From Candidatus Saganbacteria bacterium (GTDB lineage: Bacteria; Margulisbacteria; WOR-1; O2-12-FULL-45-9): a stretch of DNA of 36,771 nucleotides. Positions 1-13,160 of this stretch are shown piece after piece (position 1 is the first letter of the stretch; each line of letters starts with the position of its first letter). The position numbers and the translations under genes are program-made. The notes beneath the pieces are model-generated. The model saw only the letters and a program-made list of their open reading frames with translations, was not told where the DNA came from and searched no databases. The stretch covers positions 1 to 36,771 of the forward strand of contig JACRKQ010000005.1 of assembly GCA_016219705.1 (NCBI GenBank). The letters run 5' to 3'.

Positions 1-2315
1 AAAGACGGTTTTGCCTCTCTGCTACTGCTTTTGACTGTTCCGGAGAGGGCTTGTTCCAGCGCCTCTTTGAATTCTTTCATTGAACGATAATTAGCGCTGG
101 GTATTGGGGCAAGAGCTTTGATTAGGATTGGTTGCAGATAGTCGGGGACGGTGATTAGATTGGAGCCTGAGTTCTTCATCCAAGTTTCCCATTGTCCAAT
201 ATCCATCCGTCCGCCGATAGCTAATTCATAAAGCAGTATGCCGCAGGAGAAAATATCCAAACGGGCGTTAGCTATAGAATCTGAAGTATCAGCTGTTGCT
301 TTGTTTTGATAAATTAATGGCGCGCAGTAACCTATAGAAATAGCTGCATCGGTGGTGCGTGTCGGCCCGTCTATGTGTTCGTATCTGGCGATGCCTAAAT
401 CGATGATTACTGGCCTGGCAATGCCTCTCCCATCTTCGGTAACAAGAATATTTTTGGGTTTTAAATCACGATGATAAACTCCATTATCGTGTAAAAATAT
501 CACACCGTTAAGAATCGGCAAAAATATATCTGCTATTTGCTGTTGGTTAAGAGGAGCTCTCACTTCTTTAGAATCTTTCTTTTCCGTGAAATACGCAAAA
601 AGATTAGGAGCAGACTCCGAAGAGCCCGTTTTCTTAGGTAAAAACGGCGAGATAACAAAGATCGGCTCTTTAACCTCAAAGGCTAGAATGTTTCTCTCTT
701 CCTCTGTGGTAGGAGGATGTTTTAAATTAAAAAGCCTTTCAATTGCATCGATATTGACGATTCCAGAATCAATATTGGTATCTTCTGCTGGATTAATGTT
801 CCTATGAGGCGTGCGCGGAGGAGAAACTCTCTGTAGGGTTTTAAACTCGTTATTTGTCCTGTAAATTAAATCGGCACACTTTCTATTAGGGTCTTTATCC
901 TTTAGGCCATCATGATATCTCACTAAGTCAACAAATTTAAAGGCTTTTAAATTGCCGGCTGAATCTTCAGCTCGAAAAACAACGCCCATGCCGCCGACGG
1001 CAATTTGTTCCTTCAGCGTATAGGTAACCGGTGGTTTGCCAACAGCGAAAGTGGCGCCAATTGCGGGAAGAGCGGGAAAGCGCCCTTTTGGTGTCAACCT
1101 TCCTACCGCTACCTCTAAAGCCGCTTTAACATCCGCCGCTCGCTTTTGATACTGTTGAACAAAATCATCAACCACCTGCCTGGCGGTACTAGTGACATTT
1201 TCAAAACCAGAGAGAACGGCTCTACTGGGCCGGACTTTAGCCGCCTTATTTCTATTAATAATCTCCTGCATTTCGGTTACGGCTTTTGTAGCAGCGGCAA
1301 TATAATAATTTTGTCCCAGTTCCTTATCTTTCCCCTCTATTAATTCTTGATATATTCTAAGAGTATCTTGCGCGGTCTTTAGATCCGAAGGTGATTGGTT
1401 AATTTTCCGAATAAGCCTATCAGACGATTCCATTTGCTTTAAGGCGGCTATCGCGCTATCACATTCACCCCTTATTTGTGCGCGCAAAACTTCTTCGGCC
1501 GCTAAAACTTTGGCTTTGTTGTTATGCCAGAGGTGAAAGCCGCCAATAATAACGGATAACACAGCCCCAGCAATGTAATTGAGATAATTAAGTTCAAAAT
1601 TCCCTGGGTGAGGAAGAAGTACGCCAATATTAATTGTAAAAAAGTGAGTGGTAATATATCCTGCGCCCAAAGAAAGGCCATAAGCAATCTTAAAAGGGCG
1701 TGTGGTTTTAAAAATCAGCTGGCGTGATGTTTGAACCAAATCGCTAAGTTCATTAATAGATTGAATCTTAGTGTTTAAATTAATCGTGGAGGAAGAAGAG
1801 GACGTTAAGGACTTATTGACGTCACCACCACCACCCTTAGTAGTAGTTTCCGCAGTAATAATAGTTTCCGCTTCCATCCCTACGCGATATTTTGATATAA
1901 GTTGTGTAACGAGGAGCCCAAGGGTCGCTATTCCTGCGCCAATACCAATTGCCGGTACGGTGGAGACAAAAGCTGTGGCGATGGAGGCGCCAACAAGGGC
2001 CGAAATAATAATAGTCAGTATTTCGGTATTAGTTGCGCCTGTTTGTCCAGGGTATCTCCTGGCTGTCCGCCTTATGGGTGGTTGGGCAGATTTGGGAAGA
2101 GCAATGTTTGAAATTGATGTTGCGGTGGCGACAGTACCGGGAGCGATATATTCAATTTGGTCTGCTCGCAGAGGAACGCTCACTACCGGGGGATAAATAG
2201 TTTGGGCAGTCGCAGCGACCGAAGATCTCCTGGCTGTTATGGGCTGAAGCGGCCGCACCATCCGGCCATTTCTAGCTGCAGTTTTAAAGGTAAAGTCAAG
2301 CGAAAACAAATTCAT
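1..2315 (-). CDS. Membrane-anchored Ser/Thr protein kinase (3' end beyond window)
   Basis: Hanks-type Ser/Thr kinase. The reading frame is open from the ATG at 2315 to the left edge (771 codons) with no stop, so the C-terminus is missing. It begins with a Pro/Arg-rich cytoplasmic-looking segment, then has hydrophobic spans at about residues 92-135 and 208-267 and a helical linker. The kinase domain starts near residue 440. Visible motifs are a glycine-rich loop (IAVGGMGVVF), the ATP-binding lysine in AFKFVD, the catalytic loop HRDLKPKNIL (H at ~615) and the metal-binding motif as DLG instead of DFG (~639), followed by DIFSCGILLYELA. All catalytic residues are present, so an active kinase is expected. 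GGGAGGAG lies just before the ATG. It follows a PPM-like gene on the same strand and has its own sigma-28-type promoter. The likely role is phospho-signalling for the neighbouring envelope cluster; the substrate is unknown. Confidence 0.88.
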   Translation of the reverse strand, partial: MNLFSLDFTFKTAARNGRMVRPLQPITARRSSVAATAQTIYPPVVSVPLRADQIEYIAPGTVATATSISNIALPKSAQPPIRRTARRYPGQTGATNTEILTIIISALVGASIATAFVSTVPAIGIGAGIATLGLLVTQLISKYRVGMEAETIITAETTTKGGGGDVNKSLTSSSSSTINLNTKIQSINELSDLVQTSRQLIFKTTRPFKIAYGLSLGAGYITTHFFTINIGVLLPHPGNFELNYLNYIAGAVLSVIIGGFHLWHNNKAKVLAAEEVLRAQIRGECDSAIAALKQMESSDRLIRKINQSPSDLKTAQDTLRIYQELIEGKDKELGQNYYIAAATKAVTEMQEIINRNKAAKVRPSRAVLSGFENVTSTARQVVDDFVQQYQKRAADVKAALEVAVGRLTPKGRFPALPAIGATFAVGKPPVTYTLKEQIAVGGMGVVFRAEDSAGNLKAFKFVDLVRYHDGLKDKDPNRKCADLIYRTNNEFKTLQRVSPPRTPHRNINPAEDTNIDSGIVNIDAIERLFNLKHPPTTEEERNILAFEVKEPIFVISPFLPKKTGSSESAPNLFAYFTEKKDSKEVRAPLNQQQIADIFLPILNGVIFLHDNGVYHRDLKPKNILVTEDGRGIARPVIIDLGIARYEHIDGPTRTTDAAISIGYCAPLIYQNKATADTSDSIANARLDIFSCGILLYELAIGGRMDIGQWETWMKNSGSNLITVPDYLQPILIKALAPIPSANYRSMKEFKEALEQALSGTVKSSSREAKPS

Positions 2316-2336
2316 CTTTCTCCTCCCAACAAATGA

Positions 2337-2363
2337 TTATCCGCAGTTCCTGGAAAAAATTTC
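2337..2363 (-). promoter_or_regulatory. Sigma-28-type promoter of the kinase gene
   Basis: On the minus strand, GAAATTTT (2363-2356) is followed by exactly 11 bases and then GCGGATAA (2344-2337). The kinase ATG lies ~20 bases downstream, with a GGGAGGAG ribosome site in between. An A-tract sits just upstream of the -35 box. It is one of five sites in the window with the same boxes and spacing; the 11-base spacer shares CCAGnAACT with the site before the 567-aa gene. Confidence 0.62.
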
Positions 2364-2398
2364 AGTCAATTTTAAAAAACGCCACAAGGACGCTTTAC

Positions 2399-4102
2399 TC
2401 ATGAGACTTTTAATACAGCCAGGCTGATATCATTCATGGCGATATTTTTATCGCCGAGCGCCAGACCGAGTTTCTGGGCAAAAATTTTTGGTTGTAAATC
2501 GTTATCAATCAAATTATTAACCAATGTTGTCATTGCAGTATCGTCTAATAACGTCGATTTCGTTATGACAACTATCCACCCTTCACCCGACAAGTTGTGA
2601 ACGGGAGTTGTTGTGACCAGCGGGGTAAAGATTTTATCGTCTTTCTTGATAAAAAGAATCGAAAAGGCGGTGTTGTCGCCAGCCAATTTAATTGTCAAAT
2701 TTCTCCCTTCCAGCGAGACGGCCGCCAAGTTTGCGCCGCTATTTTGATGGAGCCGCTTCTCATTGACTACCTGGAAAATGTCCATGCCATACCTGGCGGC
2801 TTCGAGCACCCTGTCAACAGTAACAGGATCTGTAGAAGAAGCGCTAAGAATCCGATTAGCGGCGAAGACAACTGCATGGCCGGCGATTTCAGCCCCGCAT
2901 GGATACTCGTATTTTCCGGCAAGTTTTTCCCGCAGCAATTTTTTTAATTCAGCAATTTTAGGTTTTGCTGAATCACTTGGCAGCGCCATTTCTATAGCAA
3001 CATGAGTAATGTTAGGTTTGAAAGCAAGCTTTCTATCATTTGGCTCCTTAAATAATGCCCGGACATCGTCGATGTAAAGTTCTCTTGGAATATCTGATCT
3101 AGCAACACCTTCTTCTTGAAGTAAGGAGTCTGTTGAGCCGCTGGCCATGACAACGGTATTGGCAGTCAAAAAGAGCGCCTGCTGCGGCGGTAGATTTCCC
3201 CGATGCCCGCAGAAAGCGCCGGCATTATCGCCGAATTTGATTGGATCACCATCATGAGAGTTAAGATGATGGGTTATGCCGCCAAAGACGGCTAAAAAGC
3301 CTGCCGGCGGAGTTCCTATAGTATTAGCGAAACTTTCTCCCACCGAAACGGCTGACAGTCTGTCATCCATCCCTCTTGGAGGAATATGCTTCATCGGGGG
3401 GGAATTAATCTCTTCTCTTAATTTCTCACTGGCTACTTTATGATCATGTTTTAATATTTGTTTCTGGCTTCTGTAGATGCCGACGGTTAAACCAGCCGCC
3501 GTGCCTATGATCGCGCCAAGGAGCTTGTTCCCTTGGGCAAGAAAATAAAAAACTGTTCCCCCGAAAGCGGTGAAAAAAGAAGTGCTTACCGCGTTCCAAC
3601 CTCTAACGCCTAAGGAGGCTGCCCGTGGCAGAAGATAATTTAAACCGTATCCTAGGCCGAGTCCGATGCCGGACAATGCCAGTGTGGCGACAGGAGCGAG
3701 CGGCAGTGAAAATAATCTGACAACAGGAATAAAAAGATTTTTGATGGATGAAGAAAAGCTAGCTAAGAAGCCTAGAATGAAGGGGGCGCCTATGATTATT
3801 AGCTGCTTTTGATCCATGGCGCCAGAAGAATCTCTCCATAAATCGCGGTTATTTATTTTTGCTTTTACCGGCGCAATTGGGGGCGTTGCACCAGCAGGGG
3901 CTACGGCCGCGACCTGGACAGCGGCTGTATTTGGATCAACTACCGGGATATCACCAGGGCGAATTGGCGTTGCGGAAAGAGGGGCTGGCGTAGTCGGCAA
4001 AGTAAGACGAGCCGGTACAGGCGGTAAATTAGGCCGAGCGTTTCTCCTTGAACTTGTCGGACTTGTCAGCTTTGCAGTTGTTCCGAATAATCTAAAAAAC
4101 AT
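2399..4102 (-). CDS. Membrane protein with degenerate PP2C/PPM-phosphatase-like domain
   Basis: 567 aa. Residues 1-90 are Pro/Ala/Thr-rich and low in complexity. Residues ~98-210 hold about four hydrophobic spans rich in Gly and Ala. Residues ~240-567 form a soluble domain whose layout resembles PP2C/PPM phosphatases: GFLAVFGGITHH sits where the family has aVfDGxGGH, LTIKLAGDNTAFSILF resembles the central GDSR strand, and the end NDISLAVLKV resembles the final DNiTvvvv strand. The metal-binding Asp of the DG motif is replaced by Gly, so catalysis is doubtful and a pseudophosphatase or sensor role is possible. The N-terminal layout (Pro-rich, then spans, then a soluble domain) mirrors that of the kinase encoded next to it. 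AGGAGGAG precedes the ATG and a sigma-28-type promoter lies ~58 bases upstream. The PPM call is by eye only. Confidence 0.55.
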   Translation of the reverse strand: MFFRLFGTTAKLTSPTSSRRNARPNLPPVPARLTLPTTPAPLSATPIRPGDIPVVDPNTAAVQVAAVAPAGATPPIAPVKAKINNRDLWRDSSGAMDQKQLIIIGAPFILGFLASFSSSIKNLFIPVVRLFSLPLAPVATLALSGIGLGLGYGLNYLLPRAASLGVRGWNAVSTSFFTAFGGTVFYFLAQGNKLLGAIIGTAAGLTVGIYRSQKQILKHDHKVASEKLREEINSPPMKHIPPRGMDDRLSAVSVGESFANTIGTPPAGFLAVFGGITHHLNSHDGDPIKFGDNAGAFCGHRGNLPPQQALFLTANTVVMASGSTDSLLQEEGVARSDIPRELYIDDVRALFKEPNDRKLAFKPNITHVAIEMALPSDSAKPKIAELKKLLREKLAGKYEYPCGAEIAGHAVVFAANRILSASSTDPVTVDRVLEAARYGMDIFQVVNEKRLHQNSGANLAAVSLEGRNLTIKLAGDNTAFSILFIKKDDKIFTPLVTTTPVHNLSGEGWIVVITKSTLLDDTAMTTLVNNLIDNDLQPKIFAQKLGLALGDKNIAMNDISLAVLKVS

Positions 4103-4204: not shown

Positions 4205-7200
4205 TTAATGAGAGGTCGTCCAAACGCCGGCGTCATAAAGGAATCTTTCTCTCTCTTCCTCGGATGTGGTGGAGCGGGAATTATGCTGTAAGCCGTTCCC
4301 ATCTAGATAGAAAGTAGCCAGAGCTCCGAATTGCTGGAGAATATAACCCCAACTGCCGCCGCCTTGTATTGCCCAATTGGCGCCAACTTCACCCCATGGC
4401 CATTGTACGGCGGCCCTAACGGCCAACTCGTAACCAAACTGCCAGCCAAGCAGAGGAAGATCGTCAACAATAGTCAATGATGTCTCACTGCGCTCATTTG
4501 TTCTGCCGCCCTGGTCATTAAAAACACGCACCCCGGCGGAAGCGGAAAGCGCCAGCGGCGGTAAATTTCTGTCCACGCGGTCGCGATATTCAAGGGCCGC
4601 TCCAGCGGCGGCCGAAGAGACACGCAGTCTATGTCCCTGGTAAACAAAAGGATAACTAGCCGCATTGACGTATCCTCCGATTTGGAACGGCGTCTCATAG
4701 CCAGAAATACGAAGAGGGCGGGGAGAATAAAACAGACTGAATCTGCCGGAATATGCGTGCAGATATGGGTTTGCCGTATTAAAAGCGGCAAAAATTGTTT
4801 CGCGAGCGGACAAGGAGCCTGTTAACCTTTGTGAGCCGCCGCCAGCAACACTCCAATTATGATTAATGAAAAATTGACTGCTGGCCCGGCTTTCATTCAA
4901 TCCGCGGCTGCCAGATGCTGCCAGCCAGAAATTATCCCCTCGATAAATGGCGCCGAGAGAGAGCGATGAGATCCCACCGCCATTGCCGACATCGTGGCGA
5001 AATTGCAGCTCGATTGCCAGTCTGCGGAGACAATTAGTAATCGCTTCGAACGGGATACTTAAAGTTGCTCTGACACTGCTCTCGCTGGCGCCGTTAGAAT
5101 CACGGAAACTGACAAATTCGCCTCGCAATAATATTGACATCCTCTCCCTGATCGTCGGCTGTGCCGCCAGATCTCTGACGCTGTGTTCAACTGTCGGTGG
5201 AAGAGGAATGTTGAGAGTATTCAGGTTATGAATCTGGTCGACAGCCAGGCGCAGCGGCCGCCAGATTTCGTCCCAGCCGCGCTGCTGCTGCAAGACTCGT
5301 TGAGCTTGGCCCAAACGGACATTGGTCATAATCAGATAGCGGTCAGAAGAGCCGGCGCTTAAACGTTGGGCATGTTCAATAGCCAAGCGATATTCTGCCT
5401 CCGGACTGGCGTCGCTGTCGCTGTCGTCAAGATGGCGGTGGGCATGCGAATAATTATAAATATCTCCCAAACCAAGATGGGCTTTTGCCAGCAGTGTTTC
5501 CCAGCCCTGGGTCGGATGGGCTTGTAAGCTGGCAGTGGGATGAACCGCGCGAAAGATGTTCAGAGCGCGGTTGTAATGTCTTATTGATTCGGCCCAACGT
5601 TGTTCTGGTCCGGCAAAGCGGCGGATATCGCCCAAGCGTAATGCAGTTTGCGCTTCCAGCTGAAGCGCAAAAGGTTCGCCAATAAGCCGGCGCAGAGAGT
5701 GTTCATCGTTAGGAGCGATTAGACCAGAAAGATGATTCAGTACGGCCAGCGCGGCAGGATAGGTTGTTTCGCGGGTCCGGGAGGCGTCAAAAGCCAGGTT
5801 GTCCGCCAGGTTGAGCAGGAGCCGCAACTGGTAGCGGGCAAAAGAAATCGGGCGGTGTTTGAAAAGCAGCTGTATTTCCTGCGGGGCCTCGTCGAGCTTA
5901 AATGTGACGCGAGTCAGCGCCGCGCGGATATTTTCCGGCGTTAAATTGGCGGGATCAAGAGCTTGTTGACCACTGATGGTTTCATTAAGTCTTTCAGCCA
6001 GAAAAGAGGCGGCTTGAGCGAAGTGGCGTTGGCGCGAATGGGTTTCCACTTGCAGGGAGACAAGCCGGCCGTAAAGATCGGGATCACGGGCATCATGTTT
6101 CACTAGTTGGACAAGGGAAGTATTTTCAAAGGGGAGTGTTTCTGGATTCTCTCCGCGGCGCAGAGATAATTCACAATCTAAAATTTTATAGAGAGCCCGG
6201 GCGCGTGAAATGGCGCGGGTGGGACGAGGATTGCCTCTTTGGTCGATCCAAGGGAAAGAGCTTCTAATATTATTCAGGGTTTGTTGTGCTTGCGCCTGTT
6301 GATCAACCCAGCCCCAGGAGAGGGCATCAGCGGCTTGGAGTCGAAGATAGGCTTTTGTGCTGGAGGGGAGGATCAGGCGATTAGAAGACAAGCGGCAGCG
6401 CAAATTATTTATTGCTCCCTCAAGTCCTAGATGAGCGGCAAGCTCTCTGGGAGTTGTGGGGAAAGGAATTTCGGTCCCCAGTAATTTTCCGACCAGCCAC
6501 CAGATTAAAGGGTGTGTTTCCGGACGCGTGCCGTAAAGTTCGATTAAATCATTGAGCCCGCGGACAATCAATGAAGAATCATAGGGATCAGAAGGGCGAT
6601 TAAAAATATTGAAAATACGTTCTTCCAATTTTCTGACATTATCAATTTCGGCATTATCTGTCGAAGAAATCTCTGGATAGACCTCTCCTTGTCTGACGAT
6701 AAATTCACCATGCCAAAGAGCGGATTCTTCGAGCATCATCTGCGCCCGCTGTCGCGTGCCACCTCGCAAGATCTGCAAATTAATAGCGCTATTTACCTGT
6801 TCTTGAGCGGCGGCCACAACAGTATTAGCCTCGGTCGAAGATTCATCCAATTGTTCAGACATGAGAAGGGAAGCCAGCCAGAGTTTAGCAGTGGCCAGAG
6901 TGAGACTGTCTGGACCCGGCAGGTCAGCGGCCTGATCGCTGATTATCGCATCATATTCGGGGTGAGCGGCAGCAGCGTGAGGTTCAAGAGCAGGCATGGT
7001 TACTCTGCTCCCGCCGCCAGCTTCGACAATTTTATTGAGCATCCGATAAGCGGCGGCCATCCTGCCGCGCACTTCAGGGCTATCTTCTTCTGCTTCTCCC
7101 AGGCCGCGGGCGATAAAGGCCTGGCGGATAAGGGTTTCGGCCATAGCTAGATAAACACTGTAGCGTTGGACAAGGGATAACAGTCGCGGCCGTGAAGAAA

Positions 7201-8959
7201 GACCTGTTTGGTCGTAGAGACGATTGCCAATATCAATAAGCTTGTTGAAGGAAAAAGCTAATAACTGATCCTGAAAAACGGTAACAAGATATTCATCAAA
7301 TGACCGGCGTGCCTCTGGTCCGTTTAAATTCGGAGCGGCGATATTGGTATAAGGGCGAAGAATATATTCGTCAAAATAAGGAGGGATAAAACCTTCTCTG
7401 ATTCTGCCGGAGAGAGCATTAATTGTGTTGGCGAGTGTCAGCTCTCCTTGGGCGATAGTTGTCTGCAGCCAGCGATGGACTAAGTTTGTGGCCAAGGGTG
7501 ATCGAGGATGGCATCTGGTAACGGGGAGATTGCCCGATGTGATTCTATTCCTATTTTCTTGCCCCCAGTGTAGGACATTTCTCAAGCGGTGCAGACCTCG
7601 AGTGAAATTGTCATCATACGGTTGTTCATAATGGACAAGAAACTCTCCTAGGAAAGCGAACTGAATAGAATTGCCTGCTGCCGCCTGCCGTCCGGCTGAA
7701 AAAGCGAGGCTTTGATCAGCCGACGGCCGGGTATTGCGCAAGTAAGTCTCCGCCTCTTGCCACAAGCGTTGGGCTTCGGCAAGTTCTGCTTCCTCACTGG
7801 TGAAAGATTGGCCATTGGCATTGCTAAGAATTGATAAACTCTCCGCCCTCGTAGTCAATATTGAAGCCATAAAATAATTGACAAAAGCAAAGTTACCTTT
7901 TAAATTCCTTATCATCCGCGGGATTACTCGAGACCGTTCTCCTGGAGGCAGGGAAGCTAGATTGGTGGGAGATTGATATTGTATGGGATCGAGGTACTGA
8001 CGGCGGTCAGTCGGTTCTGATCCAGAGGGATTAAAATCATGCAACAGCTGATTTACCGACAAATAATAAATGTCATGTTCTCTTGCCATTACTGAACGCC
8101 CATTTGCGGCAGTTCTTGAAACAAGACGATCATCGGCTGGAATGGCGATAGCTAGACGACGAAAATAAAATTCGGCCTGACCAAGCAATTCTCTGAAGCG
8201 GTGGGAATTTGCTTCCCCTCCCAGTTCTTTATAAATAAGCGCCTGGCTGTATAAGTTCTCGCCGATTAGAGCAGAGAAGCGCGGGTTGGGCTGGCCATTC
8301 AATACCAGATAACGCTGATAAATCTCCTGCAGGGCATATAATCGACGGAGTGAATGATTATTGACAACTGTTCGCCAATTATCTTCTACCCCGGGATGTT
8401 CTTCGTATGAGGGGCCCAACATACTTCTTGCCTGTAATGCTTGACGATATTCAAGGATATCAGAATTATTAGCCAGGATAGTGGCAATTTGAGGTTGCCA
8501 GCGATGATATCTGGCTGTGCCGTTATAACCTGGCCTAGTACCGCCTAATTGCCTAACAAATTCTGGCGGCGATATCAGATAGCCCATGTTTTCATTGAGC
8601 AGAGATAAAATTAAGTTATACTCTTCTCTTTCTCCTGTAGCGCTGGCGATCGATTGTGAACCAGGCGGAGGATCCGTGAATCTTCGATCACCCGGCGGGC
8701 GAAAAATAGGTAAAGTATCGCTACGTTCGCACGTAATTGCAATTTCAACTTGAAGATTAAGAAAAAAATCATCTATAGCGATAGGCATATCGTCATCATC
8801 TGATGAACCGATTATTGTTTCCGGTTGTTGCTGCCTAGGACAAGTTGAGCCGGTAACTTGAAGCGGCAGGCTCGCATTTATAAAAAATAAAATAGGGCTA
8901 ATGGACACGACAAACCTCCTCAGCTGCCAATAAATAATAGTTGCGCCTAATGTACTCAT
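4205..8959 (-). CDS. Giant helical-repeat protein with C-terminal outer-membrane beta-barrel (BcsC-like layout)
   Basis: About 1584 aa. The N-terminus reads as a possible export signal (an Arg-Arg region followed by VVSISPILFFI). Roughly residues 100-1270 are helical, TPR-like repeats with recurring Ala/Leu/Tyr patterns such as AEYRLAIEHAQRLSA. The last ~305 residues change to alternating polar/hydrophobic strands with Gly-rich turns (at least 12-14 strands), typical of an outer-membrane barrel. TPR superhelix plus C-terminal barrel is the layout of the polysaccharide exporter BcsC, and the gene directly follows a GH8-domain gene as BcsC does BcsZ in cellulose operons; sequence homology to BcsC was not established. 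Start choice: the ATG at 8959 has AAGGA 8 bases upstream and gives the signal-like N-terminus, but overlaps the previous gene by 62 bases. A GTG at 8908 has a better GAGGAGG site and an 11-base overlap. Either way translation is coupled to the upstream gene. Confidence 0.72.
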   Translation of the reverse strand: MSTLGATIIYWQLRRFVVSISPILFFINASLPLQVTGSTCPRQQQPETIIGSSDDDDMPIAIDDFFLNLQVEIAITCERSDTLPIFRPPGDRRFTDPPPGSQSIASATGEREEYNLILSLLNENMGYLISPPEFVRQLGGTRPGYNGTARYHRWQPQIATILANNSDILEYRQALQARSMLGPSYEEHPGVEDNWRTVVNNHSLRRLYALQEIYQRYLVLNGQPNPRFSALIGENLYSQALIYKELGGEANSHRFRELLGQAEFYFRRLAIAIPADDRLVSRTAANGRSVMAREHDIYYLSVNQLLHDFNPSGSEPTDRRQYLDPIQYQSPTNLASLPPGERSRVIPRMIRNLKGNFAFVNYFMASILTTRAESLSILSNANGQSFTSEEAELAEAQRLWQEAETYLRNTRPSADQSLAFSAGRQAAAGNSIQFAFLGEFLVHYEQPYDDNFTRGLHRLRNVLHWGQENRNRITSGNLPVTRCHPRSPLATNLVHRWLQTTIAQGELTLANTINALSGRIREGFIPPYFDEYILRPYTNIAAPNLNGPEARRSFDEYLVTVFQDQLLAFSFNKLIDIGNRLYDQTGLSSRPRLLSLVQRYSVYLAMAETLIRQAFIARGLGEAEEDSPEVRGRMAAAYRMLNKIVEAGGGSRVTMPALEPHAAAAHPEYDAIISDQAADLPGPDSLTLATAKLWLASLLMSEQLDESSTEANTVVAAAQEQVNSAINLQILRGGTRQRAQMMLEESALWHGEFIVRQGEVYPEISSTDNAEIDNVRKLEERIFNIFNRPSDPYDSSLIVRGLNDLIELYGTRPETHPLIWWLVGKLLGTEIPFPTTPRELAAHLGLEGAINNLRCRLSSNRLILPSSTKAYLRLQAADALSWGWVDQQAQAQQTLNNIRSSFPWIDQRGNPRPTRAISRARALYKILDCELSLRRGENPETLPFENTSLVQLVKHDARDPDLYGRLVSLQVETHSRQRHFAQAASFLAERLNETISGQQALDPANLTPENIRAALTRVTFKLDEAPQEIQLLFKHRPISFARYQLRLLLNLADNLAFDASRTRETTYPAALAVLNHLSGLIAPNDEHSLRRLIGEPFALQLEAQTALRLGDIRRFAGPEQRWAESIRHYNRALNIFRAVHPTASLQAHPTQGWETLLAKAHLGLGDIYNYSHAHRHLDDSDSDASPEAEYRLAIEHAQRLSAGSSDRYLIMTNVRLGQAQRVLQQQRGWDEIWRPLRLAVDQIHNLNTLNIPLPPTVEHSVRDLAAQPTIRERMSILLRGEFVSFRDSNGASESSVRATLSIPFEAITNCLRRLAIELQFRHDVGNGGGISSLSLGAIYRGDNFWLAASGSRGLNESRASSQFFINHNWSVAGGGSQRLTGSLSARETIFAAFNTANPYLHAYSGRFSLFYSPRPLRISGYETPFQIGGYVNAASYPFVYQGHRLRVSSAAAGAALEYRDRVDRNLPPLALSASAGVRVFNDQGGRTNERSETSLTIVDDLPLLGWQFGYELAVRAAVQWPWGEVGANWAIQGGGSWGYILQQFGALATFYLDGNGLQHNSRSTTSEEERERFLYDAGVWTTSH

Positions 8960-11900
8960 CAACGCTTTCCTTAAGTTGACCGTTGTTTAAAATGCGTGCT
9001 AGGTAAGAAGGCCGTTGCCCTCGGGAATAATAATCCGAAGCTTCCTGGCACCAATAAAGAGCTCGAGTTGTATAGTCCCAACTTAATGAGCTGATTGCCC
9101 AAGATTGGTAGACTTGAGCCAAAAGCGAGGCGGGTTGGAAACCAAGAATATCGCGTTCTCTCTGTGCTTCATCAGTGTTTACTGCAAAAGAATAAGGATT
9201 TGTTGGAGTTGTTAAACATCGAAGGTCAGGATCAAATTGGCAGGCGATGCCGTTGGCCAAAGTAATGGCTCGCTGGCGCCATCTGTTTTCCTCCGCTGCG
9301 GAGATACGGGCGCGGCTAAAATATATGTCGGCTTGCAGGAGATCAACCTGAAGCCGGAAATAGGCGGGAAAAGGATTGTCTAAACTGGGAGCTAGGCGGC
9401 TGACTTCATTAAGATAACGCTGGGCGCGATCTAAATGAATATGCCGGAAACGGCGGTGGTGATTATTGGCAAATGAGACCTCCGTCTGGGCAAGGATATA
9501 AGCTACTTGGACACGGCGAAAAGCACGAGGAGACATGGCGCAAATTACTGAAGATGATGGATTGTCACAGAGAGGATATTGGGCGCCAGCTAACGGGAGG
9601 AGCGAAGAAAAAGAGGCAAATTCATTGGTAATAGAACGACCGGTGCGGAGACCGATTTCTGCCAAAGCGATTTGAGTATCAGCATACAAATAGCTGAACG
9701 AAGAAGAAACTGCTCGATATTGCCTGGCAGCTTCTTCGATAATAATAGAGCTAAGGCAAGATAAGCGACTCCGGCGTTGGGCACTTTCACTGGGAAGAAG
9801 AGAGGGGCGAACCCCAGGTTGCGGAGGTGGCGACGCTATCGATTGGCCGAGGGAATCGAGTGCTTCCAGTAGATTGGATTGTGAGCTGAAGATGTGGCTC
9901 TCTCGAATTATTTGTCTACCTTCAGCGATATCGGCAAAAGCTTCTCTTTTTCTCTGTTCATAGGCGTCGTTTGTCTCTCCGCTGCCTTGCGGGCGAAGTA
10001 GATAGGTAATTATGTCTGCCAACATAAGTAATAGCTGACCCCGGGTAGCCGCGAGAGCGCTATAAGTATAAGTTTTCTGGAGAGTTGGGATGCTTGCCTC
10101 TGGCTGGTCAAGGGTTACGCCTCCCCCTTGCAGTACTGCTCGGCTGCGATCATAACTGGCAAACTGGCTCAAATTATAATTCCGGGCGGCCGGCTCCAAG
10201 TTTCTCAAGATCACTTCTGCCTGATCGAGCTGGGCTAATCCGGCAAAAATTTCATCCAGGCCTTGCGCCCCCTGGCGCTGGGGAATAAGACCAACCTGGC
10301 GCACCAGGATTTCTGCTGGCATCCGCCGCATCGACAGGATCATTTCCCTGGCCTGGGAGGGGGAGAGAGAGGCTCTCCTCTGGTTAAGGCTGATGGCTCC
10401 TTCCAGGTCTTGCCAGCTAAATTGAACATTGTCAATGGCTGGAGCGGTGATGCCGGTGGCCGTAAAGATATTAGAATGGCTAGAGCCAAAATCTCTAAAA
10501 TTTATGTCGATAGGATGACCCTCATTAAAATTTTGCAATGCCCTATATAGCTCATTTGATAAATTCAAGAAATGGTTATCGATCCTCCCCTGATCGTTGG
10601 GCGGCAGGGCAGCTTGATAGCGGGTGATTAAATCTGCCACAGTTAAAAGTGCGCGATAGATCGTAGCATAGTCAGGTCGGCTGGTTTCATAACCACCGGT
10701 AAGGACTTGCCCAACATTACTAAATCCATTAATGCTTTGCAGGGCTAATTCAATTCCCCGGCGGTAAAACGCTTGAGCTCTTCCTTGGTCTAAACTAACT
10801 TGTCTGCTGGCGGAATAATCGCTCCCTTCAGCGGGGATTTGCAGACGCAGTCCCGCTTCTGCAAGATTGAGGGCGGCTTGATTATAAGGATTGGCATTGG
10901 TGAAATCCGAGAGGTCATTAGAAAATAATATTCTTAAATATTCGCAAAAATCGATAGCGTCTCGCATCTCGGGATAAGGGCGATTTTCTGTCATGAGTCG
11001 TTCACTATAGGCTGAAAGCAGGATCGTCAATTGGTCCAGTAAAGTTTGCGGCGCTCCACGCAAATATGACCAGATGTAGTGAGGATTGGTTGGCCAGCGA
11101 TGGCTATCATCCGGTCCGAAATTTTCTTCATCATGGCGAATTTGGACTAAAGCCTGGGAAAGACTGGCTAATGCGGCGTCTCGGCCGGCTCTGACTAGTG
11201 CAGCATCTCGGCTGGCTGTGGTAGCTGTGGTCTCATTGCCGCGCAGGGCAGTGAAAGCAGCTCTGACCACGTGTTGCAGGTGATGGAAGTTTACCCGCTG
11301 GACGAGAGTATCGCGATTAATAGTTGTTAGGCCAAGGGTGCGGCCATGGACTGTCTCCCGGGGAGCGACGCAAGCCAATGGTTTAGTTTGAGTCGTGGTT
11401 GCCGGAGGATTGTAACCAAGAAATTGGGAAATCGGCTCTAAAAAATACGAATTTATCCAGCCGATTACTGTGTTTAGCTGTCGGCTGATAATATCTGGTC
11501 GACCATTATTCCGGTAGACTGGCAGTGAAGGAGCTGGGCTTACAGGTGCAGCGGGAGGATGAATTGCTGGTCGAAGACCCTGACAAATTTCGGCGCGTTG
11601 TCCGGGGGTAAGCAATCGATCACGTACTAGAGCAACAAGACGATGAACGCCGCTCCCTTCCGGGTCAGCTTGGGCAAGAGCCTGGGCGATCACTTGTTGG
11701 ACATAATATTTGCTAGTGTTTCTCCAAAATCCTGCACGAGGATTCAAGTTGGTTAGTTGTTGCTGGGCGTTTCTCCTGATAGCCGGGTCAGGTGAATAAA
11801 GCAAAAATGACGCAACTGTGGCAGTGGTTGCCAGGCGCATTTCGCTAGCTGATGAATCAGCTGGGGTTCCTCCGCTATGACTATAGCCGCCTTGCATATT

Positions 11901-13160
11901 ACTGAGATGCTGGCTCAAAAAGGTAATTGGGCTAAAGCCGGGATCAGTTAGATATCTTGTTGTTAAAAGAGGGAAATTACCATCGCAAATAACGTGAGAG
12001 TAATATAAATCTTCTGCTACGCGCAGTGGAATACGGGCGGCATCCCAGGAAAAGTCAGATTCATTATGATTGCCGCCGGAGCCAAAAACCCCCGCTTCAT
12101 AGTAACGAGAAATATTTGGATCCACCATGCCATTTTGAATATGAGGGAAAAAATCGACAAAATTTGATGGTAGTAGAGGCAAAGCGGCATTGTTGGGTAT
12201 ATTGAGCCGGGCGGCGCTGGCTTCATGCATAGATAGATAATAAGCATCAGCTAGGTCTGCCCATGGGCCGCTGGGATCAACAACAGGAAAAATAAAACGG
12301 AAGAAAGCCGGGAAATAGTAGCTATGGTTCATCCGGCCGGTAGTTACATGTTGATCGCCAGCGAAGAGATAAGGGCGAACAGAGGCATCTCTTTCTTCAA
12401 ACCAGCGGACATAAGCGCGATCGGCATCACGTAAAATAGCATGGGCATCACAATAGAATAAATTATGCGGCGAATTAGGGTCTGTTAAACAAGCTTGGTC
12501 TGCTGGATTGCCTGCTTCGGGACTGCGATCCCAACCTTGCAGATAGGCAAAAATAAGGTTAGCGGCTCGAAACAGATCGGCGTCTGGAGCGCCATAAATA
12601 CCGCCGCGATCAGTTTCATTTGACCATCTTAGCTGATAGCTCAAAATTCCACCTCTTGAAGGAGCTGGAGTATAATTAACGCCATCGAAATTGAAATTGG
12701 GTATGCTTGGTACAAAACGCCAAAACATATTATTATCACGGAAGCGATCCGGAAGAGTAATTTTAGTCCAGTGTCGTTGTGAAATGGTAAGCGAAGCAGC
12801 TTCCTGCCAAAATGTGGCAGGATGTAGACCAAATACGCGAACGTTTGGTGAATTACGGACCAAATTATTTCTCGTCCAATTTTCCAGGGCAAGGAAATCT
12901 TCCCTGCGATTTTGAGTAATTAGAAGCCAGCCGAGATAAGCGATAGTTTCCGAAACAGTGGTGCATTCTGTTAGGTTGCCATCGTGATCTATATCAGGAT
13001 CGTTACTAGGGATATTATCTAGATTACCACAAGGGCGCACGTCTTCTAACGTGTTCTCGTCTCCGGCGCCGTTGTGAGCTCGGCTGTAGGCGATATAATA
13101 ATTAACAAAAGCCGGTATCTGTAAACTGGCGCCGGGAACGCTGCTTATTACTGGCCCCAT
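8898..13160 (-). CDS. GH8 (BcsZ/cellulase-like) domain fused to a long helical-repeat region
   Basis: 1420 aa. Residues ~1-490 carry the glycoside hydrolase family 8 signature in order: VSETIAYLGWLL with LENWTRNNL (70-100), APDADLFRAANL (191-202), MNHSYYFPAFFRF (277-289) and SWDAARIPLRVAED (371-384). These line up with BcsZ SEGQSYGM, TWTQNNL, ASDGD, FNPSYLPP and YDAIR. The expected catalytic pair, Glu71 (general acid) and Asp373 (base), is present, so a beta-glucan hydrolase or trimming role is plausible. A Pro-rich linker (~530-550) leads to ~830 residues of TPR-like helices. The start is secure: AGGAGG lies 8 bases before the ATG, and a sigma-28-type promoter lies 26 bases upstream. No classical signal peptide is visible, which is odd for a GH8 protein. 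It overlaps the downstream TPR/barrel gene and forms an operon with it. A GH8 domain fused to a giant repeat region is unusual. Confidence 0.78.
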   Translation of the reverse strand: MGPVISSVPGASLQIPAFVNYYIAYSRAHNGAGDENTLEDVRPCGNLDNIPSNDPDIDHDGNLTECTTVSETIAYLGWLLITQNRREDFLALENWTRNNLVRNSPNVRVFGLHPATFWQEAASLTISQRHWTKITLPDRFRDNNMFWRFVPSIPNFNFDGVNYTPAPSRGGILSYQLRWSNETDRGGIYGAPDADLFRAANLIFAYLQGWDRSPEAGNPADQACLTDPNSPHNLFYCDAHAILRDADRAYVRWFEERDASVRPYLFAGDQHVTTGRMNHSYYFPAFFRFIFPVVDPSGPWADLADAYYLSMHEASAARLNIPNNAALPLLPSNFVDFFPHIQNGMVDPNISRYYEAGVFGSGGNHNESDFSWDAARIPLRVAEDLYYSHVICDGNFPLLTTRYLTDPGFSPITFLSQHLSNMQGGYSHSGGTPADSSASEMRLATTATVASFLLYSPDPAIRRNAQQQLTNLNPRAGFWRNTSKYYVQQVIAQALAQADPEGSGVHRLVALVRDRLLTPGQRAEICQGLRPAIHPPAAPVSPAPSLPVYRNNGRPDIISRQLNTVIGWINSYFLEPISQFLGYNPPATTTQTKPLACVAPRETVHGRTLGLTTINRDTLVQRVNFHHLQHVVRAAFTALRGNETTATTASRDAALVRAGRDAALASLSQALVQIRHDEENFGPDDSHRWPTNPHYIWSYLRGAPQTLLDQLTILLSAYSERLMTENRPYPEMRDAIDFCEYLRILFSNDLSDFTNANPYNQAALNLAEAGLRLQIPAEGSDYSASRQVSLDQGRAQAFYRRGIELALQSINGFSNVGQVLTGGYETSRPDYATIYRALLTVADLITRYQAALPPNDQGRIDNHFLNLSNELYRALQNFNEGHPIDINFRDFGSSHSNIFTATGITAPAIDNVQFSWQDLEGAISLNQRRASLSPSQAREMILSMRRMPAEILVRQVGLIPQRQGAQGLDEIFAGLAQLDQAEVILRNLEPAARNYNLSQFASYDRSRAVLQGGGVTLDQPEASIPTLQKTYTYSALAATRGQLLLMLADIITYLLRPQGSGETNDAYEQRKREAFADIAEGRQIIRESHIFSSQSNLLEALDSLGQSIASPPPQPGVRPSLLPSESAQRRSRLSCLSSIIIEEAARQYRAVSSSFSYLYADTQIALAEIGLRTGRSITNEFASFSSLLPLAGAQYPLCDNPSSSVICAMSPRAFRRVQVAYILAQTEVSFANNHHRRFRHIHLDRAQRYLNEVSRLAPSLDNPFPAYFRLQVDLLQADIYFSRARISAAEENRWRQRAITLANGIACQFDPDLRCLTTPTNPYSFAVNTDEAQRERDILGFQPASLLAQVYQSWAISSLSWDYTTRALYWCQEASDYYSRGQRPSYLARILNNGQLKESVDEYIRRNYYLLAAEEVCRVH

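Follow-up and report, generated by a model that had tools for sequence, protein, structure and literature searches.

A predicted GH8 enzyme on a helical scaffold and its putative barrel partner in Candidatus Saganbacteria: a possible module for polysaccharide processing and export

Introduction

What might a bacterium do with two giant overlapping genes, one for a predicted glycoside hydrolase family 8 (GH8) enzyme mounted on a long helical scaffold (P0001) and the other for a protein of helical repeats whose C-terminus is predicted to be an outer-membrane barrel (P0002), when no recognisable cellulose synthase accompanies them? The pair lies in a stretch of 36,771 nucleotides, here called the window, which is the entire contig JACRKQ010000005.1 (contig C78 of genome G000 in our set) from a 1.47 Mb assembly that is 87% complete. 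The genome is that of a Candidatus Saganbacteria (WOR-1) bacterium, and loci from three genomes of the window's family are identical to, or overlap with, Candidatus Saganbacteria/WOR-1 records (JABMSE010000052, METP01000056 and JAFGDE010000003). WOR-1 is a deep-branching, uncultured lineage near the cyanobacteria, which we take to belong to the phylum Margulisbacteria.

Synthase-dependent exopolysaccharide export is known from a limited range of bacteria, and the well-studied examples combine a membrane synthase with periplasmic and outer-membrane parts exported by Sec. An initial annotation of the window, made from its sequence, had read the pair as BcsZ and BcsC of the cellulose system rebuilt as giant fusions, possibly part of a surface-polymer export system. 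The answer that we favour, by a modest degree, is a module for processing and exporting a polysaccharide, which would work like BcsZ/BcsC or PelA/PelB, by analogy and not by membership.

Results

The GH8 domain of P0001

The start of P0001 is fixed at 13160 by an AGGAGG ribosome-binding site and an in-frame stop codon immediately upstream. Searched by itself, the protein is not recognised as GH8 by Pfam (PF01270) and gave only chance matches to Pfam and to PDB sequences; an initial scan of the genome contigs with it found no match, and the NCBIfam BcsZ model reaches P0001 at E=0.029 only, over residues 65–108. It was the orthologues, drawn from the window's own family and from others, that solved the identification. 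Those in G002, G008, G009 and G018 pass PF01270 (1e-12 to 1e-25), as do standalone enzymes of G032, G039 and G042, and P0001 aligns directly with these GH8 proteins by BLAST (best 1.5e-28), the G018 protein excepted. In an alignment of eight GH8 domains the residues corresponding to E71, D193, D195, D373 and R376 are invariant, and a profile built from them matches the cellulase CelA (1CEM) at 5e-29. E71 falls in the column of CelA E95, where the E95Q mutant entry 1KWF has Q, and D373 aligns with CelA chain residue 246, which is D278. By hhalign, E. coli BcsZ is matched at 97.6% probability (E=4.6e-12). Judged by sequence, P0001 is a member of GH8, and its catalytic pair, together with the profile and BcsZ matches, leads us to predict an active enzyme.

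All structure models used here rest on shallow alignments of 3–4 sequences taken from the window and related loci. The AlphaFold model of P0001 residues 1–1190 (four sequences) is all-alpha with a predicted local distance difference score (pLDDT) of about 50, and Foldseek returned no GH8 match for it, the model being too weak to reveal the (alpha/alpha)6 barrel of that family. Strict tetratricopeptide repeats (TPR) were found only in relatives of P0001, not in its own tail.

GH8 enzymes of other kinds occur elsewhere in the set. The standalone enzymes of loci L023–L025 are about 600 residues long, carry Sec signals and contain an insert resembling CBM11, and loci L084–L089, from other families of the phylum, encode different GH8 giants of about 2000–2600 residues with an N-terminal lipoprotein-like signal, several of which end in a C-terminal membrane helix; sugar ABC (ATP-binding cassette) transporter genes adjoin them.

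The predicted barrel of P0002

The real start of P0002 is probably GTG 8908, which is preceded by a ribosome-binding site (GAGGAGGT) and at which the N-termini of relatives align; upstream starts at 8959 and 8962 are possible alternatives. In a model of the last 500 residues helices come first, followed by about 15 long strands (pLDDT 48, predicted template modelling score (pTM) 0.32). Comparison of this model with 350,542 PDB chains by Foldseek gave only three matches below 1e-3, namely BcsC, PelBC and again BcsC, with OmpG and PgaA ranking lower; the values, which are those of a low-confidence model, are 3.8e-6 for BcsC and 5.2e-5 for PelBC, with a TM score of 0.33. Several orthologues have Phe as their C-terminal residue, as is typical for outer-membrane proteins. 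In searches across the genome set, from which all genome-wide counts given here derive, a profile of the barrel finds one copy per genome in 16 of 74 genomes, confined to the window's taxonomic order except for one weak match in G025. We also scored beta-amphipathicity, which was positive for all eight barrels (z 2.0–4.6), but E. coli BcsC scored 0.4 and the measure was not relied on.

Much of the initial annotation is borne out at this point. The proposed GH8 domain with catalytic Glu71 and Asp373 aligns as described, the long helical tail is seen in the all-alpha model, and the C-terminus of the barrel protein, when compared with BcsC as had been suggested, matches it in predicted fold, at low confidence. 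The downstream gene does overlap P0001 and does encode helical repeats before the putative barrel; with the GTG 8908 start the overlap is 11 nucleotides, not 65.

Gene order and exchange of the hydrolase

Related genera repeat an order in which a giant membrane protein comes first, then a TPR protein, then a hydrolase mounted on a helical scaffold and last a TPR-barrel. The initial annotation had proposed looking for such conservation, and P0003-P0004-P0001-P0002 is indeed kept in G008 and G009, while G002, whose contig begins there, keeps P0004-P0001-P0002. The G008 protein in the P0004 slot is shorter and has an N-terminal membrane anchor, and BLAST finds no match between it and P0004. Three genera (G010, G013 and G018) combine GH8, helices and barrel in a single polypeptide of 1612–1953 residues.

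The hydrolase family is itself exchangeable. A GH26 fusion occupies the slot before the barrel in G011 and adjoins the GH8-barrel protein in G010; the barrel protein of G002 carries an N-terminal GH16 domain (BglS-like, 2.5e-80), and GH16 neighbours are found in G014 and G018. Catalytic motifs are kept in both families (GHEMN in GH26, E-x-D-x-E in GH16). PKD-repeat and kinase genes follow the cluster in several genomes; just upstream of the cluster in G008, and also on its strand, are genes for UDPGP, a nucleotidyltransferase and GT5. The common denominator is the predicted barrel plus an exchangeable endo-beta-glycanase, a combination that argues for glycan processing during transport.

Three further loci deserve mention. 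The 3.9 kb contig of locus L094, which bears the label Omnitrophota, has an identical P0003-P0004-GH8 order and is probably mis-binned, horizontal transfer being the alternative. In L156 (contig C15 of G053), from a distant family member, a P0003-like gene of 2312 residues lies near a GH8 gene, which suggests that the association predates the window's order. On contig C24 of G008 a separate 489-residue GH8 adjoins a GT2 that resembles BcsA, and the two may be a conventional pair of BcsA/BcsZ type.

Secretion signals

With simple hydrophobicity and charge criteria, no Sec signal peptide was seen in any tested cluster hydrolase, barrel or PKD protein, whereas ten controls show signals (among them the standalone GH8 enzymes, the GH16 of G018, other Saganbacteria proteins, BcsZ and BcsC). 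Residues 1–17 of P0002 are moderately hydrophobic and contain no basic residue. Read from ATG 8959 its N-terminus becomes more signal-peptide-like, but the relatives cannot be extended in that way. The GH16 counterpart in G018 has a lipoprotein-like signal.

Promoters and a flagellar-type export apparatus

The element TGAAATT-N14-ACGATATA precedes three genes of the window (Table 1). In other genomes of the order it stands before genes of the cluster, usually at a distance of 20–45 nucleotides from the start codon. It resembles a sigma-28/FliA promoter, the consensus of which is TAAAGTTT-N11-GCCGATAA. Genome counts against a reversed-pattern control are 39 versus 5 in G000, 95 versus 7 in G002 and 85 versus 7 in a third count. 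The element also stands before an rpoD-like gene and a PorV-like gene with a Sec signal; the regulon is thus broad, and co-regulation is therefore no proof that a protein is an export substrate. Each Saganbacteria genome has tens of copies, and many of the genes downstream encode unknown proteins with disordered-looking N-termini.

FlhA is present in 53 of 57 genomes. G000 itself has a fliK-flgE/G-fliMNOPQR-flhBA operon (contig C94, locus L042), and the same set is found in G010 (L046), where a FliA/WhiG-type sigma gene adjoins flhA. No flagellin was found in 13 Saganbacteria genomes with a single Pfam model. A classical injectisome was considered and rejected, since the apparatus genes (FlhA, FlhB, FliP, FliO, FlgE/G) score as flagellar; a needle-like open reading frame of 73 residues in G009 has no family match.

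Other genes of the window

Pfam gives no match for the giant membrane protein P0003, and its PDB matches are by chance only, so that a known synthase was rejected as its identity. P0006 probably forms a downstream unit, and kinase genes like P0007 are found downstream in G008 and G013 too. P0006 and P0007 (together 3–4102, minus strand) share a close pair of membrane segments near residues 100–140, followed in P0007 by the kinase domain, a layout that resembles chlamydial Inc proteins. Between P0004 and P0001 lies P0005, an AAA_14/DUF4143 ATPase gene shortened to 306 residues, with its remaining C-terminal coding in another frame; relatives lack it, and from its sequence it looks like a decayed insertion. 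A scan of viral contigs gave no match, leaving a phage origin unsupported.

Table 1. Features of the window, all on the minus strand
Feature	Position	Strand	Description
P0001	8898..13160	-	1420 residues; predicted GH8 domain at about residues 1–500, then helical tail; reading frame open and intact
E71 codon	12948..12950	-	Predicted catalytic acid (CelA E95); invariant in 8 of 8
D373 codon	12042..12044	-	Predicted catalytic base (CelA D278); invariant in 8 of 8
P0002	4205..8908	-	1567 residues from GTG 8908; helical repeats, then predicted outer-membrane barrel; reading frame open and intact
Predicted beta-barrel of P0002	4301..5131	-	About 15 strands, residues 193–469 of the last 500; family alignment A2
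FliA-like promoter of P0001	13185..13213	-	TGAAATT-N14-ACGATATA, 0 mismatches
FliA-like promoter of P0003	23711..23739	-	0 mismatches
FliA-like promoter before P0006	4159..4187	-	2 mismatches
P0003	17183..23677	-	2164 residues; giant membrane protein; with P0004-P0001-P0002 in G008 and G009
P0004	14370..17171	-	933 residues; TPR protein containing one or more internal membrane segments; TPR_14 2.6e-5; orthologues in that slot in G002 and G009
P0005	13300..14308	-	
P0006	2399..4102	-	567 residues; paired membrane segments at 102–141; no family match
P0007	3..2315	-	Paired membrane segments, then a Ser/Thr kinase domain; Pkinase 1.7e-20; gene leaves the contig end

Discussion

In the module that we favour, the GH8 domain of P0001 would cut or trim a beta-linked glycan, likely cellulose-like or a mixed-linkage beta-glucan, as it crosses the periplasm. 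The helical tail of P0001 and the helical repeats of P0002 would keep the enzyme on its polymer and guide the chain towards the predicted barrel at the C-terminus of P0002 in the outer membrane, with P0003 and P0004 as candidate inner-membrane and scaffold parts. We infer the polymer, the direction of transport, the periplasmic location and the roles of P0003 and P0004. TPR-barrel proteins belong to the operons for poly-N-acetylglucosamine (PNAG), alginate, cellulose and Pel, and the TPR of PgaA stimulates the hydrolase PgaB (PMC9384988). The points that we count for the module are the GH8 catalytic pair, the BcsC and PelBC matches, the gene order, the fusions and the exchange in the hydrolase slot, and further the nucleotide-sugar and GT5 genes of G008 and the C-terminal Phe of several orthologues.

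Several results weigh on the other side. BCSC_C (PF05420) is found in 0 of 57 genomes, BcsB has none over the cut-off in the same 57 (one sub-threshold match), BcsA has no match in G000, and no glycosyltransferase is recognised in the window; the BcsA-like GT2 matches elsewhere are all far below cut-off. Of the parts of a synthase-dependent exopolysaccharide system, no synthase or inner-membrane partner was recognised; a hydrolase, TPR and a predicted barrel are present in P0001/P0002 and in the single-chain fusions. hhalign shows no sequence relation between the P0002 barrel and BcsC (probability 2.2%), the barrel model is of low confidence, and for many proteins of the cluster no family match was obtained. 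The lack of Sec signals in the hydrolase and barrel proteins leaves their periplasmic location uncertain.

The initial annotation can be judged in this light. Its statement that no BcsA or BcsB lies nearby holds and can be widened to the whole assembly, which is 87% complete. Its rebuilt BcsZ/BcsC pair stands as an analogy, given the order, the overlap and the GH8 domain, but not as demonstrated descent, since sequence comparison gives the barrel no place in the BcsC family; P0001 is by sequence a GH8 member, yet the pair is neither BcsZ nor BcsC. Its GH8 domain, its TPR/barrel partner and the conservation of the cluster are supported. Its surface-polymer export system is a prediction, for which no synthase was identified. 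The missing Sec signals, the exchangeable hydrolase family and the FliA-type promoters are new.

The lack of Sec signals and the FliA-type promoters would also fit cluster proteins that are substrates of a filament-less flagellar-type (type III) apparatus (FlhA/FlhB/FliPQR), made under a FliA-like sigma factor and acting outside the cell or at its surface, where their target would be either the matrix of the cell itself or the polysaccharide of a partner. The contrast with ten clear Sec controls, the promoter before P0001, P0003 and their relatives with its genome-wide enrichment, the fliK-to-flhBA genes of G000 and G010 with the sigma gene beside flhA, the absence of flagellin from 13 genomes, and the paired membrane segments after disordered-looking N-termini in P0006 and P0007 all point that way. 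Integral barrels, however, are not known as type III substrates, the GH8 domain of several orthologues begins within the first residues and leaves scant room for a disordered N-terminal signal, and the regulon extends to an rpoD-like gene and a PorV-like gene with a Sec signal; the flagellin evidence comes from one Pfam model. We consider it unlikely. That such an apparatus, with its own FliA-like sigma, places the signal-less hydrolase/TPR/barrel machine in the envelope, replacing Sec for the whole module, seems to us less likely still.

Slightly lower again we would put glycan degradation and uptake, in which surface or periplasmic endo-glycanases would release sugars that pass inward through the barrel. 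GH8, GH16 and GH26 are commonly degradative, and the contigs concerned in G006 and G008 also carry sugar ABC transporter genes, which are found beside other GH8 giants of the phylum as well, but TPR-barrel proteins of solved function, the Foldseek matches among them, are exporters, no SusC/D or TonB-type signature was seen, and the upstream genes of G008 fit uptake poorly. The least probable of these alternatives places everything in the cytoplasm, with the GH8-helical and barrel-like proteins acting on stored glucan and the "barrel" located elsewhere than in the outer membrane. The lack of signal peptides and the GT5 (glycogen-synthase-like) neighbour in G008 agree with it; the predicted amphipathic strands, the outer-membrane-protein-like ends, the outer-membrane barrels found by Foldseek, the PKD proteins of the cluster and the lipoprotein-like signal of the G018 GH16 counterpart do not.

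Comparison with known systems

The export module that we favour is closest to E. coli BcsZ/BcsC, where a hydrolase gene likewise precedes and overlaps that of a TPR-barrel (by 19 nucleotides in E. coli, 11 here), with the same GH8 catalytic pair and with TPR followed by a C-terminal barrel, here a layout predicted by a low-confidence model. BcsZ differs in being a 368-residue protein with a Sec signal encoded in a bcs operon, against a 1420-residue scaffold with no signal and no bcsA or bcsB, and BcsC is matched in predicted fold and not in sequence. Pel (PelA/PelB) and PNAG (PgaB/PgaA) similarly combine a glycan-processing enzyme with a TPR-barrel exporter, PelBC being second in the Foldseek list; their hydrolases are of other families, and no PelF/PelG/PgaC-type synthase is recognised here. 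Within GH8 (CelA, BcsZ; PF01270) the motifs SE..Y, DxD, N-SY and DA-R and both catalytic residues are shared, whereas P0001 is so divergent that Pfam misses it and has its GH8 domain N-terminal to a helical solenoid, to which relatives add a barrel.

Filament-less flagellar basal bodies are found in Buchnera (PMC8109811), where basal-body and export genes are likewise kept without a working flagellum; FliA-type promoters on glycan-enzyme genes are particular to the present case, and export of those proteins is a hypothesis. Set beside these systems, the proposed Saganbacteria module has no recognisable synthase or Sec signals and joins its hydrolase to a scaffold or barrel; the barrel is kept when one hydrolase family replaces another. 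How outer-membrane proteins without signals get to the envelope is a question that it raises, and it offers a natural experiment on the interchangeable parts of such export machines.

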